Positions 26,036-58,058 of a stretch of DNA of 64,000 bases are shown piece by piece. The DNA comes from Ruania alkalisoli (GTDB lineage Bacteria; Actinomycetota; Actinomycetes; Actinomycetales; Beutenbergiaceae). The stretch spans positions 95,581 through 159,580 of the forward strand of contig NZ_CP063169.1 of the NCBI RefSeq assembly GCF_014960965.1, in the 5' to 3' direction. The first letter of the stretch is position 1. Each line of letters starts with the position of its first letter. The notes beneath the pieces were generated by a model. That model was not told where the DNA came from. It worked only from the letters and a program-made list of their open reading frames with translations, and did not search any database. The translations under genes and the position numbers were made by a program.

Positions 26036-26893
26036 TCAGGACTTCGTGTCGCGGGTCTCCTCGGCGGCGTCCTTGACGTCCTCAGCTGCATCCTGCGCAG
26101 CGTCCTTGGTCTGCTCGGCAGCGTCCGTCACGGCTTCACCGGCGTCATCCGCAGCGTCCTTGGCGTCATCGGCCACGTCCTGTGCGGCGTCAGTTGCGGC
26201 GTCCTTGACCTTGGCCGCCTTCTCGGCCACGGCGCCGGCAGCGTCGGTGACTGCATCCTTGGCCGTGGCTGCGGCACCAGCGGCTGCTCCTGCGGCCTCC
26301 TCGGCGACGTGCTTGGCCTTCTCCGCGGGGGCGGGAGCGTCGTCCCAGTACTCCTCGGCCCACGGGTCATCGACCGGCTGGGTCCGCTTCCAGATCAGCA
26401 CCCCGGCTCCGGCGACCGCAGCTCCGGCGAGTACCCATCCGATGGTCTTGCCGACCTTGTTGCTCTTCGTGGCCTTCTTCTCCTGGGCGGCGACGGCGTC
26501 GCTGGCGGCGTCCAGCACCGAGTTCGCCTTGCTCTGCAGGCCGTCAGCACCGGAGTTCGCAGCCTTGGCCGCGTCCTCCATCGCCTGCACCACACGGGGC
26601 AGCACCTTGTCCACGATGGCGTCGTGCGCCACGTCGACCGCGCCCTTGCTCTTCTCGGCGTACTCGGCGACCTTCGGTGCGGCGGCGGTGACTCCGGTGC
26701 GCCATGCCTTCTCCACCCGGGGCGTTGCCCACTCGACGGCGGAGTCCACACGCGGGGAGGCCCATTCCTTGGCCTTCTCCACCTGCGGGCCGGCCCACTC
26801 CTTGCCCTGGTCGGCGAGCTGACGCGCGACCTTGCCGGCCTCCTCGGCCTGAGCCCGAAGTTGTTCGGCGTTGACCTTCTCCTTGCGCGACAT
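26036..26893 (-). CDS. LEA-like amphipathic repeat protein with one membrane segment
   Basis: A 285-residue protein in three parts. Residues 1-145 are charged helices and contain three 11-residue repeats at 32-64 (EWAGPQVEKAK, EWASPRVDSAV, EWATPRVEKAW). Residues 150-167 form one membrane segment (IGWVLAGAAVAGAGVLIW). Residues 190-285 are an Ala/Asp/Lys/Glu-rich tail of 11-mer-like repeats (KDAVTDAAGAV, KDAATDAAQDV, KDAADDAGEAV). Such repeats resemble group 3 LEA or apolipoprotein-like helices that bind membrane surfaces or protect proteins on drying. No catalytic domain is seen. AGGGAG precedes ATG 26893. Its gene is separate and ends at the strong terminator. Role in stress or envelope organisation is inference. 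Confidence 0.75.
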   Translation of the reverse strand: MSRKEKVNAEQLRAQAEEAGKVARQLADQGKEWAGPQVEKAKEWASPRVDSAVEWATPRVEKAWRTGVTAAAPKVAEYAEKSKGAVDVAHDAIVDKVLPRVVQAMEDAAKAANSGADGLQSKANSVLDAASDAVAAQEKKATKSNKVGKTIGWVLAGAAVAGAGVLIWKRTQPVDDPWAEEYWDDAPAPAEKAKHVAEEAAGAAAGAAATAKDAVTDAAGAVAEKAAKVKDAATDAAQDVADDAKDAADDAGEAVTDAAEQTKDAAQDAAEDVKDAAEETRDTKS

Positions 26894-52183: not shown

Positions 52184-53037
52184 TCGACGCCTCGGCCGCC
52201 GCCCTCGCCCTCGGCGCGGGCCTGGTCGCGGCCGTCAATCCGTGCGGTTTCGCCCTGCTCCCGGCCTATCTCAGCCTGTTCGTCATCAAGGACGCCCCAC
52301 CCACCCGGCGCGGCGCGATCCTCCGGGCGCTGCGCGCGAGCCTGGCCCTGACGATCGGCTTCTCGGCCGTTTTCGTGACGTTTGGTCTCGTGGTCGCTCC
52401 GGTTGCGGCCGGCGTCCAGGCCTACCTGCCGGTGTTCACGGCTGGGCTCGGTCTTGCGTTGCTGGGCGTCGGAGTCTGGGTGGCGCTGGGGCGAACCCTT
52501 CCCAGCATCCGCCTGCCGCGGCGGAAGGGACCGGTGAAGCCTGTCACCGCCACCTGGGGCTCGATGATCGGATTCGGAGCCTCGTACGCGGTGGCCTCGA
52601 TCGGCTGCACCATCGCCCCCTTCCTGGCCGTCGTCGTCACGGCATTCCGTGCCGATTCCGCCGTGAGCGGGATCGTTCTGTTCACCCTCTACGCGCTCGG
52701 GATGGGGCTCACGGTTGCGGTGGCCGCGACGGCGACCGCCCTCGCCCGGCGAGGCATCATCGGTGCGATGCGCCGCACCGGTGGAGGGTTGCCGCGAATC
52801 GCCGGCGGTGTGCTCGCCCTGGCAGGGGCGTACGTGGCCTGGTACGGCATCTGGGAACTGCGGGTCCTGCACGCCGGCGCAGGGCCGGACCCGATCGTGG
52901 AGGCCGCTGCGGTGCTGCAGCGGTGGCTCGCGGAAGCGGCCGGGGCTCTCGGGGTGGCCGGGCTGGGGGTGGCGCTCGCGGTGCTGCTCGTGCTCGCGCT
53001 GATCCGCCGACGGCGCAACGCACCCGCGCGGGACTGA
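52180..53037 (+). CDS. CcdA/DsbD-family thiol:disulfide electron transporter
   Basis: The 285-residue membrane protein has the CcdA core of six segments plus one C-terminal extra. The redox cysteines are Cys 22 in AAVNPCGFALLPAYLSLF and Cys 143 in YAVASIGCTIAPFLA, matching the two half-sites of the family. It carries reducing power from cytoplasmic thioredoxin to outside proteins, here surely the coupled thioredoxin lipoprotein. No cytochrome c assembly genes are nearby, so general thiol upkeep is more likely than haem attachment. A repeat cluster begins eight bases after the stop. Confidence 0.92.
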   Translation: MIDASAAALALGAGLVAAVNPCGFALLPAYLSLFVIKDAPPTRRGAILRALRASLALTIGFSAVFVTFGLVVAPVAAGVQAYLPVFTAGLGLALLGVGVWVALGRTLPSIRLPRRKGPVKPVTATWGSMIGFGASYAVASIGCTIAPFLAVVVTAFRADSAVSGIVLFTLYALGMGLTVAVAATATALARRGIIGAMRRTGGGLPRIAGGVLALAGAYVAWYGIWELRVLHAGAGPDPIVEAAAVLQRWLAEAAGALGVAGLGVALAVLLVLALIRRRRNAPARD

Positions 53038-53044
53038 GCGACCT

Positions 53045-53126
53045 GGCGTTCGAATCCACTTCCGGCGTTCGAATCCACCTGTGGGTAGCCGGAACTGGAT
53101 TCCAATGACGGTAGTGGATTCGAACG
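53045..53126. repeat. direct and inverted copies of a 13-15 bp motif in the ccdA-phnD gap
   Basis: GGCGTTCGAATCCAC occurs at 53045-53059 and 53064-53078 (period 19). Its inverse GTGGATTCGAACG is at 53114-53126, and a related TGGATTCCAA lies between. A 12-base match (GCGTTCGAATCC, 53317-53328) recurs in the first codons of phnD. The rest of the 277-base gap contains a TAGCGT -10-like box at 53248 and no gene. Confidence 0.8.
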
Positions 53127-53314
53127 GGAGTCCGGCTCAGTGTGAACGCAGCGCCTCCTGACCCACTTCGGATCTCGTTCATGGACGTTCGCCTTCGCGT
53201 CGATGACTGTTCACCTTCTGGTGGGCAATCCGTCCACGATGTCTCACTAGCGTGGCCGTGACGTCCAGACGGGCGCTCTCCCCACCCCGCACGCCCACCG
53301 AAAGGCATCGGCCC

Positions 53315-54388
53315 ATGCGTTCGAATCCGCGCCAGAACCTGCGCAAGACCACGCTCGTGACCGCGCTCGCCGCGACGACGGCCCTCGCCCTCGCCAGCTG
53401 CAGTTCCGAGGCCTCCGGCTCAGAAGGCACCGACTCCGACGGCGGCAGCGACTCCGCCGACTCCGCCGGTTCCACCCAGACCGAGTGGCCGGAGGAGATC
53501 ACCATCTCCCTCGTCCCCTCCGTCGAGGGTGAAGACCTGGCCGAGGCGCTCGACCCGCTCACCACCTACCTCTCCGACGGCCTCGGCATCACGGTCGAGG
53601 GCGTGGTCGCGACCGACTACGCGGCCACCGTCGAGGCGCTCGGAGCCGACCAGGCGCAGGTGCTCATCACCGACGCCGGCTCCCTCTACAACGCGATGGA
53701 GCAGTACGACGCCGAGCTGATCCTGCGTGACGTGCGTTTCGGGGCCACCTCCTACGCCTCGATCGCCATGACCAATGACCCCGGCACCTACTGCGCCGAC
53801 GAGGTGGTCACCGCGACCTACGGCGCGACGGGAGACGAGCTCTCCTACTGCAACGGCACCGAGGCCGGTCCGGACGCCGCCGGGCAGGGGCCCGCCGGGC
53901 AGGAGGCGCTCGCGAGCATCGCCGAGGGCACCCCGGTCGCACTGCAGGCGGCCACCTCCCCTGCCGGCTACCAGTACCCCGTCGTCGCTATGCGTGAGCA
54001 GGGCATCGACACCGATGCCGGCATCCAGCAGATCCCGGTCGAGGGCAACAACAACGCCGTTCTCGCGGTGGCGAACGGCGACGCCGAGGTCGGGTTCGCC
54101 TACTGGGACGCCCGCTCCACGGTGACCGAGGAGGTGCCGACGGTCGGTGAGGACGTCGTGGTGTTCGCCTACACCGAGATGATCCCCAACGGTGGCGTCG
54201 CCGTCGCCCCGAGCCTGCCGGAGGACCTGGTGGCCGAGCTCACCACCCTCATGGACGACTACGCCGACTCCTCCGACGAGGCCGCCACGGTCATGTTCGA
54301 CCTGGTCGGACTTTCGGACTGGAGCGCCGACACCGCCGAGGACGAGATCACCCGCTACGGCGAGATCCTCGCCGAATTCAGTCAGTGA
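53315..54388 (+). CDS. phnD: PhnD-like substrate-binding lipoprotein
   Basis: A 357-residue phosphate/phosphite/phosphonate-type binding protein. The lipobox LALASC (Cys 29) follows a basic start; a Ser/Asp/Gly-rich linker leads to [40 protein letters not shown], and [17 protein letters not shown]. These are the PhnD-type two-lobe features that bind oxyanion ligands. The start at ATG 53315 has AAAGG upstream. It is the first gene of a phnD-phnC-phnE-phnE-rpiR operon. No C-P lyase or phosphonatase is present, so the ligand may be another phosphorylated compound. Confidence 0.9.
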
Positions 54389-54443
54389 GCCCAGGTCAGT
54401 CAGTGAGCCCAGGTCAGTCAATGAGCCCAGGTCAGTCAATGAG
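54380..54443 (+). repeat. 18-bp tandem repeat across the phnD/phnC stop-start junction
   Basis: Three units GTGAGCCCAGGTCAGTCA (54385-54402, 54403-54420, and 54421-54438 with A as first base) are followed by a degenerate fourth at 54439. Each unit carries a TGA in the phnD frame and a GTG or ATG in the phnC frame, overlapping as (G/A)TGA. The translational-coupling site is thus present four times. Confidence 0.95.
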
Positions 54444-55278
54444 TGCAGCTCAGCCGGTGACGACACACTCCACGACCGGGGGCGCGGCGGCCGAGACCGC
54501 CGCGCCCTGGGCCCTCTCGCTCACCGACGTCTCGGTCACCTACCCGAACGGGACGCAGGCGCTGAAGAACGTCACGGTGCACATCGAGCCTGGTGAGATC
54601 GTCTCGATCGTGGGCCTGTCGGGCTCGGGGAAGTCGACGCTCATCCGCACGATCAACGGTCTGGTTCCGGTCACCTCGGGCACGGTCACCGCTGGTGGTC
54701 ACGACGTTACGCGCGCCCGGGGGCGGGCCCTGCGGGAGCTGCGCGGCCACGTCGGCATGATCTTCCAGGGCTTCAACCTGGCCGACCGGGTCAGCGTGCT
54801 CGACAACGTGCTTGTGGGCCGGTTCGCGCACACCCCCACCATTCGCACCGTGCTGGGCCTGAACCGCGCCGCCGACCGCGAGCTGGCGCTGCGCGCACTG
54901 GACTCGGTGGGCATGCTCGAGAAGGTCTGGACCCGCGCGGGTGCTCTCTCCGGTGGTCAGAAGCAGCGCGTCGCGATCGCACGTGCGCTCTCGCAGGAGC
55001 CGTCGGTGATGCTGGCCGATGAACCCGTGGCGAGCCTCGACCCGCCGACCGCGCACGCCGTCATGAACGATCTGGCCCGCACCAGCAGCGAACGCGGCCT
55101 GACGGTGCTGATCAACATTCACCTGATGGACCTGGCACGTCAGTACACCCAGCGCATGATCGGCCTGCGCGACGGGGAACTGGTCTACGACGGCTCGGCG
55201 GCCGAGGCCACCGACGCCGACTTCGAGCAGATCTACGGTCGCCCGATCCAGGGCCGGGACCGCCTGGGGAGCGTGTGA
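54385..55278 (+). CDS. phnC: PhnC-like ABC transporter ATP-binding protein
   Basis: A single-domain ATPase of up to 297 residues. It has Walker [10 protein letters not shown], the Q-loop MIFQGFNL, signature LSGGQKQR and Walker [13 protein letters not shown]. The N-terminus is unusual: four possible starts at 54385, 54403, 54421 and 54439 give a (V/M)SPGQS repeat. The last ATG (MSAAQP) would give 279 residues and is probably the original start. The gene overlaps phnD and is followed by phnE with a TGATG overlap. It powers uptake of the PhnD ligand. Confidence 0.93.
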
Positions 55279-56123
55279 TGCCCCCGACGGCGTCCCCTCC
55301 CCGTGCGTCCGCCTCACCTGAGGCCGTGTCTGAGTGGGGACTGCCGCCGCGGCCCCGCCGAGCCGGGCGGCGAGCACTGGTTCTGGTTGCCTTGTGCGCC
55401 TTCACCGCTCTCACCTGCTGGCCCGCGATCGGCGGTGTGGAGATCGACCTGGCCGGGCTGGTGCGGAACTGGTCCAACGGGGCCGACAAGATCGCTCAGC
55501 TGCTGCGACCCGATCTGTCGTTCCTGCCGCGCACGGTCGCCCCGATGTTGGAGACCCTGGCGATGGCTGTGGCGGGTGCGGCGTTCGCGGCGATCGTCTC
55601 CATTCCGCTGACCCTCGCTGCCGCCCGGCCCAGCAACCCGAACCCGGTCACGCGCCAGCTGGTGCGATTCTGTATCAACGTCAACCGGGCCGTCCCGGAC
55701 CTCGTCTTCGCCACGGTGCTGGTCGCGATGGTGGGCGTCGGGACCCTGCCCGGCTTCCTCACCCTCTTTCTGTTCGACCTCGGCGTGGTGGTCAAGCTGG
55801 TCTCCGAGGCCGTCGACTCCGCCGACCATCCCTACCTGGAGGCGGGTACCGCCGCGGGCGGCACGCAGGCGCAGATCAACCGCGCGACGGTGCTGCCGCA
55901 GTCCTGGCCGTTGTTCGCGAACCAGTGGCTGTACTCCCTGGAGCTGAACGTCCGTATCTCGGCGATCCTCGGGATCGTCGGCGCCGGCGGGATCGGCCGG
56001 CTGCTGGATGAACGCCGTGGGTTCTTCGCCTACGACGACGTCTCGGTGATCATCCTGGAGATCCTCGTGGTGGTCGTGGTCATCGAAGTCATCTCGAACG
56101 CGCTGCGCAGGAGACTGCGATGA
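55278..56123 (+). CDS. phnE: PhnE-like ABC transporter permease 1
   Basis: A 281-residue permease. It has a long Pro/Ala-rich cytoplasmic start, then a segment ALVLVALCAFTALTCWPAIG, the PhnE-type TVAPMLETLAMAVAGAAFAA, INVNRAVPDLVFATVLVAMV, and the ATPase-docking region YLEAGTAAGGTQAQINRATV with LGIVGAGGIGRLL. It pairs with the next permease. ATG 55278 or GTG 55275 may start it; both overlap the phnC stop. Confidence 0.92.
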   Translation: MPPTASPPRASASPEAVSEWGLPPRPRRAGRRALVLVALCAFTALTCWPAIGGVEIDLAGLVRNWSNGADKIAQLLRPDLSFLPRTVAPMLETLAMAVAGAAFAAIVSIPLTLAAARPSNPNPVTRQLVRFCINVNRAVPDLVFATVLVAMVGVGTLPGFLTLFLFDLGVVVKLVSEAVDSADHPYLEAGTAAGGTQAQINRATVLPQSWPLFANQWLYSLELNVRISAILGIVGAGGIGRLLDERRGFFAYDDVSVIILEILVVVVVIEVISNALRRRLR

Positions 56124-57046
56124 GCCGGCGCGAGGTGGCGCAGTGCCACGACGAGGTGGCGCCCGGCTCAGCCGAGCCGGTCCCCAGCCCCGGTGCCGTG
56201 GAGCAGACCACGGTGACGTCCACACCGGCAAGCACCCCGGCCCTCCCACCCAAGCCCTCTCGCGTGACGGCCACCCTCACTGCCGTGGTGACGGGCGCCG
56301 TCGTGCTGGCTGCGACAGCCGGGCTGAACATCAGCTGGACCGAACTCGGCGACGTCCCCGGCCGGGTGGTGGAATACCTGCGCCTGATGTTCGCCGACCC
56401 GAACTGGGAGAAGCTGCCCCGGGCGCTGTTCGAGACCTGGCGGTCGATCTCGATGGCGTGGCTTGGGGCGATCGGATGCGTGGTCGTCTCCATCCCGCTG
56501 GGGATGCTGGCCGCGAGCGGGATGGGCCCGGCGTGGCTGCGCGTGGGATTGCGTGCGATCTTCGCCGTCATCCGGGCCGTGCCTGAGGTGATCATCGCCC
56601 TGGTGCTGCTGACCGTCACCGGCCTGACGCCGTTCACTGGCGCCCTGGCGCTCGGTATCGCCGGTATCGGGACCCAGTCCAAGTGGGTGTACGAGGCGGT
56701 CGAGTCGGCCCCGACCGGAGCTACCGAGGCCGTGCGTGCCGCCGGGGGATCTACTGCCGAGATCGCACGCTGGGCGATCTGGCCGGCGGTCGCGCCCGTG
56801 CTGATGTCCTTCGCCCTGTACCGGTGCGAGATCAACATCCGCACCTCGGCTGTTCTCGGACTGGTCGGTGCCGGAGGGATCGGTTCGATGCTGTCGAACT
56901 ACACCAACTACCGCGAGTGGGACACGGTGGGCATGTTGCTCATCGTGGTCGTGGTGATCACCATGGTCTTCGACCTGATCTCCGGGTCGATTCGCCGGCG
57001 CATCATGGAGGGAGCGCGTGTCCGTGACGTGGACGGGACCGGCTGA
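56120..57046 (+). CDS. phnE: PhnE-like ABC transporter permease 2
   Basis: A 308-residue second permease, homologous to the first: ALFETWRSISMAWLGAIGCV, IRAVPEVIIALVLLTVTGL, ATEAVRAAGGSTAEIARWAI, LGLVGAGGIGSML. The 65 N-terminal residues are Pro/Ala/Thr-rich and not conserved. Two non-identical PhnE subunits are common in actinobacterial operons. It overlaps the first permease gene by four bases and the regulator gene by 29 bases. Confidence 0.92.
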   Translation: MSRREVAQCHDEVAPGSAEPVPSPGAVEQTTVTSTPASTPALPPKPSRVTATLTAVVTGAVVLAATAGLNISWTELGDVPGRVVEYLRLMFADPNWEKLPRALFETWRSISMAWLGAIGCVVVSIPLGMLAASGMGPAWLRVGLRAIFAVIRAVPEVIIALVLLTVTGLTPFTGALALGIAGIGTQSKWVYEAVESAPTGATEAVRAAGGSTAEIARWAIWPAVAPVLMSFALYRCEINIRTSAVLGLVGAGGIGSMLSNYTNYREWDTVGMLLIVVVVITMVFDLISGSIRRRIMEGARVRDVDGTG

Positions 57047-57881
57047 GGCTCCGGTGTCGGCGCGGATCGCCGCGCTGGCACCCTCGCTGCAGCCGAGCGA
57101 ACGGCGCGTGGTCGATGCGATCGCCGCCGACCTCGCCGCCGCGGTGGAGTGCACCGCACAGGAGATCGCCGACCGGGTCGGTGTGGGCCGGGCGTCGGTG
57201 ATCCGCACTGCGCAGAGCCTCGGGTACGACGGCTACCCGCAGCTGCGGGTGGCGCTGGCACGCGAGGTCGCCCTGGCTCCGGCCACCGCGACCGCCGACG
57301 ACTCGCCCATCGGCAGCCTGCGCGCCGCGGTCGACCGGTTCGCGCGCGCACTGCCCCACCTGACGGCGGCCCTCACCCCCGCGGACGTGGAACGGTTCGT
57401 GGCGGCGCTGGACCAGGCTCCCCGGGTGGTGCTCGTGGCCGCCGGTCTCTCCGCACCGCTGGGGCTGAGCATGGCGATGCGGCTCAGCGCCGCGGGCCGG
57501 CCGGCCGAGTACCTGCCGGACACGCTCTCCCAGCTGATCGCGGCGCGCAGCCTGGAGCCGGGCTCGGTGTGCCTGGTGATCTCCGGCTCGGGAGCGAACC
57601 AGCCGAGCCTCGATGCGGCCGCGGCCGCACACGAGGCCGGGGCGCGGGTGCTGGTGCTGACGTCCTTCGCGCGGGCGCCGATCGTCGAGCACGCCGACAC
57701 GGCGCTGGTGATTCCCGCCGTCAGCGACTCCTTCTCCGATGAGCTGGTGCACACCTCCCGTGCCGCTCTCGCACTCGTGATCGAGGCACTGGTGGACCAG
57801 GTGGTGACCCGGCGCGGGAGCCGGGGGCGGGAAGCGCGTGATGCGGCGCTGCGGCTGATCGGCGGGCGGCTGCGGGAGTAG
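57018..57881 (+). CDS. RpiR/MurR-family regulator with SIS domain
   Basis: A 287-residue regulator. The N-terminal RpiR helix-turn-helix (about 15-85) reads LQPSERRVVDAIAADLAAAV, TAQEIADRVGVGRASVIRTA and QSLGYDGYPQLRVAL. The C-terminal SIS domain (about 115-255) has VVLVAAGLSAPLGLSMAMRL, VCLVISGSGANQPSLDAAAA and VLVLTSFARAPI. SIS domains bind phosphosugars. GTG 57018 has GGAGGGAG four bases upstream and lies 29 bases inside the permease gene, so the long overlap is real. It probably controls this operon and suggests that the imported compound is a phosphorylated sugar or polyol or becomes one. Confidence 0.9.
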   Translation: MSVTWTGPAEAPVSARIAALAPSLQPSERRVVDAIAADLAAAVECTAQEIADRVGVGRASVIRTAQSLGYDGYPQLRVALAREVALAPATATADDSPIGSLRAAVDRFARALPHLTAALTPADVERFVAALDQAPRVVLVAAGLSAPLGLSMAMRLSAAGRPAEYLPDTLSQLIAARSLEPGSVCLVISGSGANQPSLDAAAAAHEAGARVLVLTSFARAPIVEHADTALVIPAVSDSFSDELVHTSRAALALVIEALVDQVVTRRGSRGREARDAALRLIGGRLRE

Positions 57882-58058
57882 GGGCGGACCATCCCTGACC
57901 GTGTCGGGTGGCGTTCGTTCGGTCCCTTCGGTGGCATTGTCCGGTGGCGGCCTGGTCGTGGGCTTCCGGGGCGCCCGTGCAGATCACCAGTGGTGAGGCG
58001 GCGCACGTGCTGTGAACGGTCCGTCGCGGCGTCGACCTGGCTCAATCCGCGCCTGGGG

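Follow-up and report, generated by a model that had tools for sequence, protein, structure and literature searches.

Stop and start codons that overlap by four bases are very common between bacterial genes. In Mycobacterium, MIRU are repeat units of about 46-101 bp, and the same unit is dispersed at many loci. Between senX3 and regX3 of Mycobacterium tuberculosis, the MIRU units form small ORFs whose overlapping stop and start codons join the two genes. VNTR contingency loci are short tandem arrays that are able to change their copy number. ETR-D/MIRU4 has been described as a variable spacer at the senX3-regX3 site (excerpts of PMC2413405). In axe-txe, a short ORF lies just upstream of the txe start, the position of its stop sets downstream translation, and a -1 change made a new minigene (excerpts of PMC8708949). 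A 2023 study of native E. coli gene pairs with reporters found that coupling needed no more of the upstream gene than its last 15 nt, that reinitiation decreased by 40-80% at +14 nt and was nearly lost at +38 nt, and that the hyfH-hyfI pair still reinitiated well across 15 nt (excerpts of PMC10666635). A review cites a study in which spacing up to +25 nt was without effect (excerpts of PMC12548453).

In this study, we analyzed a 64-kb window, the whole stretch of DNA under examination, which corresponds to C1:95581-159580 of a 4.45-Mb single-contig Ruania genome (G000). The operon of interest, which encodes an importer of the phosphonate type, has the order phnD (SBP), phnC, phnE, a second phnE, and an ORF for a MurR/RpiR-type regulator. 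In profile searches, the phnD product scored 116 bits with TIGR01098 (cut-off 112.05) but 79.2 bits with the phosphonate-binding profile TIGR03431 (curated cut-off 261.1); its likely signal peptide was counted from 53315. PhnC scored 305.3 bits with the phosphonate ABC ATPase profile TIGR02315, above the curated cut-off of 266.1, and both phnE genes match TIGR01097. The nearest named PhnC relative (98%) is that of Ruania rhizosphaerae (L002), and its junction sequence is identical to that of G006, the R. rhizosphaerae genome compared below. The regulator ORF (57018-57881), a possible operon regulator, shares 29 nt with the end of the second phnE. Upstream of phnD, the region 53045-53127 contains a 15-nt direct repeat, GGCGTTCGAATCCAC, in two copies 19 nt apart, together with an exact inverted pair, CGTTCGAATCCAC/GTGGATTCGAACG; these repeats may form an operator or belong to the end of the preceding gene. 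The opposite-strand ORF 53420-54466 was rejected as a gene because it is no more than a frame that stays open on the strand facing phnD. Among the tandem arrays of the window, the highest score (143) belongs to a 54-bp repeat at 26054-26181.

The phnD and phnC genes overlap by the 4 nt GTGA at 54385-54388, and 4-nt overlaps are also found at phnC/phnE and between the two phnE genes. Of the 110 close co-directional junctions contained in a 464-kb genome sample, 44 overlap by exactly 4 nt, so this type of junction is itself ordinary.

Table 1. Coordinates of the features at the phnD/phnC junction.
Feature	Position in the window	Strand	Remarks
phnD, substrate-binding protein gene	53252-54388	+	ORF from first possible start; TIGR01098
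Unit 1, last six codons of phnD itself	54371-54388	+	TGA overlaps GTG 54385
phnC, ABC ATPase gene	54385-55278	+	longest in-frame form, from GTG 54385; TIGR02315
Unit 2, start GTG 54403	54389-54406	+	AGGT 6 nt upstream
Unit 3, start ATG 54421	54407-54424	+	AGGT 6 nt upstream
Unit 4, start ATG 54439	54425-54442	+	AGGT 6 nt upstream
Unit 5 (diverged), start GTG 54457	54443-54460	+	site of the start common to G001 and G006
12-bp hairpin inside phnC coding region	54479-54508	+	22 nt after GTG 54457

TRF reported an array at 54378-54443 with a period of 18, 3.7 copies, 97% match, and a score of 118. The preliminary description had seen three near-perfect units followed by a degenerate fourth. The 18-bp tandem is real, but counting by TGA/RTG overlap gives five 18-base units (54371-54460): units 2-4 are nearly identical and differ at one base, the first and fifth are divergent, and the first is the end of phnD itself. 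As phnD codons, the unit reads GCC CAG xTC AGT CAR TGA, that is, the last six codons of phnD with the stop included. These matches show that the array is a head-to-tail duplicate of the phnD end, placed between the phnD stop and GTG 54457.

The TGAs of the five units end at 54388, 54406, 54424, 54442, and 54460. As proposed earlier, GTG 54385, GTG 54403, ATG 54421, and ATG 54439 are each overlapped by a TGA in the phnD frame, and all four are open in the phnC frame. The view that the repeat multiplies the coupling site was overstated, because phnD ends at the TGA at 54388 alone; the four further TGAs come after it in that frame, and ribosomes translating phnD meet a single overlap. Read in the phnC frame, the 18-nt unit is free of stops, and a restart at GTG 54385 reads through the array into PhnC. 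Therefore, in G000 PhnD ends at its own stop and PhnC gains only optional N-terminal codons. For the array, GC3 was 0.50 when read as phnC and, with stops left out, 0.75 when read as phnD, whereas that of the phnC body was 0.90, which indicates that the array is not settled phnC coding sequence.

Copy number differed among the Ruania species, each represented by one genome: five in G000, five in G006, two in G001, and one in G002. In a fifth genome (G005), phnD ends with TAA and an ATG follows 15 nt later with no overlap, and the remaining three of the eight genomes of the genus have a distant paralog only. The invariant copy number that would have spoken for a frozen duplication was thus not found. 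Over 600 nt of phnD, G000 and G006 share 94.8% identity, and over 780 nt of phnC they share 96.8%. Despite this high identity their unit sequences differ, from which we infer that the two arrays expanded or were homogenised after the split. The invariant point across the relatives is the last GTGACG (GTG 54457 in G000), which precedes codon 26 by 57 nt in G000, G001, and G006, and the additional copies are insertions on its upstream side.

In G006, the last spacing between units is 17 nt, which puts the first four GTGs outside the PhnC frame. These GTGs open a minicistron of 24 codons, VSPVQPVSPVQSVNAAHPVTEPSQ, whose TGA overlaps GTG5, the apparent start of PhnC, and the minicistron (L083/L002; G006:C11, about 640715-640790) has 4-nt overlaps on both sides. 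GTG5 is the only ATG, GTG, or TTG in the PhnC frame from 60 nt before the phnD stop to codon 26, and a GGAG precedes it by 8 nt (-5.8 kcal/mol). For the G006 junction, the sequence seems to come from a single assembly. In G000, a MIRU-like mini-ORF between phnD and phnC is absent. Because the array of G006 is outside the PhnC frame, the peptide that it encodes is dispensable in that species. The earlier statement that copy changes never break either frame therefore holds for whole units and fails for the 17-base spacing, and the proposed (V/M)SPGQS leader on PhnC is in frame in G000 but is not conserved. As far as these assemblies tell, the conservation of PhnC does not extend to the leader, and the frames do break in nature.

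The SD energies in G000, calculated with what we take to be the 16S tail, were 0.1 kcal/mol (practically no SD) for GTG 54385, -3.5 kcal/mol for starts 2-4, and -2.2 kcal/mol (weak) for GTG 54457. The AGGT of starts 2-4 is missing from the units of G001, G002, and G006, and two of the G000 units have ATG in place of GTG. SD matches of four bases are nothing unusual in this genome, in which 62 of the 110 close junctions have 4 or more nt. ATG 54421 and ATG 54439 could plausibly serve as short-range or fresh starts. RTGA was kept in all 13 units, a circular result since the units were found by RTGA search; selection on the TGA columns of these units, in an equally circular and post hoc test, was not significant (P 0.07). 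Units 2-5 lie +14 to +68 nt from the phnD stop. With the strong distance dependence reported in excerpts of PMC10666635, they should add little by reinitiation, and the first overlap would account for nearly all of the coupling at any copy number; by the example of hyfH-hyfI (excerpts of PMC10666635) and the absence of a spacing effect up to +25 nt (excerpts of PMC12548453), units 2 and 3 could take part.

The genome sample contained 334 genes, called with a home-made GC3-rule caller, and 314 junctions, of which the 110 mentioned above were close and co-directional. The tandem score was 46 at the phnD/phnC junction, 24 at the next of any junction, and 11 at the next close co-directional one; among 966 random in-gene stretches used as a control, one scored 49 and all others 14 or less. 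In three Ruania genomes, the top scores at the other close co-directional junctions were 11 (n=110), 15 (n=99), and 11 (n=87), and at the junction that scored 15 (L157, G001 sample) the tandem is located 3' of the overlap and does not repeat a stop/start site. In G000, four RTGA spaced exactly 18 bases apart were seen at this junction only (two overlapping matches, among the matches listed), and the reversed control pattern also gave one match in this genome. A dispersed repeat family was rejected, the unit being confined to this array in its own genome. A family-wide device of 18-base RTGA arrays was also rejected: the pattern had some match in at least 55 of 99 genomes among the matches listed, regardless of gene context, and many matches resemble repetitive coding sequence. 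Among the literature matches listed, which were open-licence only and are weak evidence of novelty, no title or abstract opening described repeated stop/start overlaps, and the words "tandem" and "repeat" do not occur in PMC10666635.

The junction also carries a hairpin inside phnC. It is included in the predicted fold of the junction, the whole stretch having a z of -2.11, with 6 of 200 shuffles as stable. The hairpin statistics refer to orthologs of 60% identity or more, with L083, L087, L089, and L091 left out as duplicates of kept loci; one of the ortholog hairpin listings covers loci at 52% or more. A stem score of at least 30 (loops up to 25 nt) was found in 52 of the 65 orthologs, and the 13 without it, which speak against a general hairpin, include G001 (9 bp, 20-nt loop) and G005. 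An in-frame start lies upstream of the hairpin in all 52, and an in-frame GTG lies in or after it in 8. From the nearest upstream in-frame start to the stem, the distance is 19.2 +/- 3.9 nt (20 of the 52 have exactly 19), a spread that is narrowed by taking the nearest start; from the phnD stop to the stem, it is 33.6 +/- 17.0 nt. The latter distance is 90 nt in G000 and 89 nt in G006, the two longest of the 52, and the next is 73 nt.

Covariation was counted on alignment A1 (65 sequences, 62 distinct), which was not fitted to structure and in which L082, the present locus, was replaced by the window; the stem was defined from one ortholog (L011) and then counted across A1. Pairing was seen in 80.3% of cells against 40.5-45.8% with the partner slid, changes on both sides in 71 cells against 25-43 slid (shuffled mean 30.2), and the covariation score was 0.244 against 0.055-0.095 slid. 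The number of pairs with any both-sided change (13 of 15, and 11-13 in the slid controls) does not discriminate, and RNAalifold on the gapped alignment gave 0 pairs. When each ortholog was recoded synonymously 200 times (loops up to 14 nt), 13 of 65 hairpins exceeded all recodings, 35 were reached by 2 or fewer, and 15 by 35 or more; the hairpin of the window was reached by 2 of 200. Its score of 34 was also reached at 7 other of the 110 close junctions and in 0 of 668 in-gene stretches. Some of these 7 could be genuine terminators where genes had been paired wrongly, and strong junction hairpins are not special to phnC.

The hairpin was rejected as a canonical intrinsic terminator, as 6 or more T in the next 10 nt were found in 0 of 52, and as a known Rfam family, with 0 matches at gathering score in 53000-58000. 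In a second phn operon of the same genome (L196, C1:1530262-1530301), an 18-bp hairpin separates phnD from the phnC ATG and is not part of the coding region, so a hairpin at the phnD/phnC border may predate its inclusion in phnC. We infer that the hairpin may protect the phnD mRNA end, act in attenuation, or hold the ribosome. Across the aligned orthologs, a start followed by a hairpin at about 19 nt is conserved better than the array. GTG 54457 keeps that spacing, so the array has been inserted ahead of a module made up of start and hairpin. The covarying hairpin is a separate and better conserved feature, and its role is directly testable.

We believe, with somewhat more confidence than doubt, that the array is a slippage-born duplication tolerated by both frames, which provides alternative PhnC starts and has at most a modest effect on coupling. 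It would have been born by replication slippage or unequal exchange and would persist because neither protein is harmed. Ribosomes that terminate on phnD would reinitiate mostly at GTG 54385 whatever the copy number and make the long PhnC, and the AGGT-preceded ATG 54421 and ATG 54439 could yield shorter forms. The effect on the amount of PhnC would be modest, the array would mainly alter the PhnC N-terminus, and the start-then-hairpin module would be left intact. In favor of the duplication are the identity of the units with the phnD tail, the invariant GTGACG, the copy numbers of 5, 5, 2, and 1, the low GC3, the out-of-frame array of G006, the uniqueness of the junction in the samples, and the distance dependence of reinitiation. 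Against it stand the ATG swaps and the G000-specific AGGT, as selection for initiation would give, as well as hyfH-hyfI and the study without effect up to +25 nt (excerpts of PMC10666635 and PMC12548453). On balance, we see in it less a proven switch than a duplication that changes fast and is mostly harmless. The natural series of one, two, and five copies, with a frame-broken version, could test whether only the first restart site is used.

The same ATG swaps and AGGT motifs, the variation of copy number between species, and the absence of such an array from the other sampled close junctions of three genomes would fit the earlier idea of copy number as a dial on PhnC translation that is under selection, is driven by slippage, and acts through the number of restart sites. 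This idea is possible but weakened, and we regard it as unlikely: phnD ribosomes meet one stop only, reinitiation falls fast with distance (excerpts of PMC10666635), and the sister species has its array out of the PhnC frame. It is also improbable that the array is a frozen, silent insertion, an untranslated or rarely translated spacer without effect, with ordinary initiation at GTG 54457 (or ATG 54439). The conserved 57 nt to codon 26, the near-usual distance to the hairpin (22 nt, usual 19), and the single in-frame start seen in G006 speak for such initiation. However, species differ in how many copies they have and of which type, which means that the array has not been frozen throughout the genus, and starts 2-4 have better SD energies than the weak GTG 54457.

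Somewhat less likely still, in our opinion, is a composite scheme, in which a phnC module conserved in this Micrococcales lineage (a start, about 19 nt, and a translated hairpin that halts or holds the phnD ribosome) is fronted in Ruania by a frame-tolerant repeat. Whole units would then extend PhnC and a -1 slip would turn the array into a minicistron relay, with the handover surviving and its strength shifting. Very unlikely is a decoupling spacer that separates the phnD stop from the start-plus-hairpin module and lowers PhnC relative to PhnD: it would agree with the exceptional stop-to-hairpin distances of G000 and G006 and with the two handovers or fresh start that PhnC of G006 would need, but unit 1 of G000 still overlaps by 4 nt in the frame of PhnC, for which one handover is therefore enough.

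Compared with known systems, the slippage-born duplication that we favor shares features with several of them. Like the termination-reinitiation pairs with 4-nt overlaps (excerpts of PMC6728339 and PMC10666635), phnD and phnC overlap by 4 nt, and one unit of the array carries the sufficient 15-nt length plus the stop (excerpts of PMC10666635); in contrast to those pairs, the overlap unit is repeated here and alternative in-frame starts follow. The array resembles the MIRU at senX3-regX3 in having variable-number tandem repeats between adjacent co-directional genes, and the small-ORF feature of MIRU resembles the R. rhizosphaerae minicistron. Unlike MIRU, the unit is 18 nt long, derives from the end of the upstream gene itself, occurs at one locus (four matches in its own genome with up to 3 mismatches, all inside the array), and is in frame with the downstream gene in G000. 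The txe minigene (excerpts of PMC8708949) is similar to the R. rhizosphaerae minicistron, also in its origin by a -1 change, but is without a tandem repeat or a copied stop of the upstream gene. As in contingency VNTR, the array is short and tandem and its copy number can change; in contrast to them, the unit length is divisible by three, so that no gene is switched on or off by the gain or loss of whole units, and the variation seen here is between species only, with one genome each.
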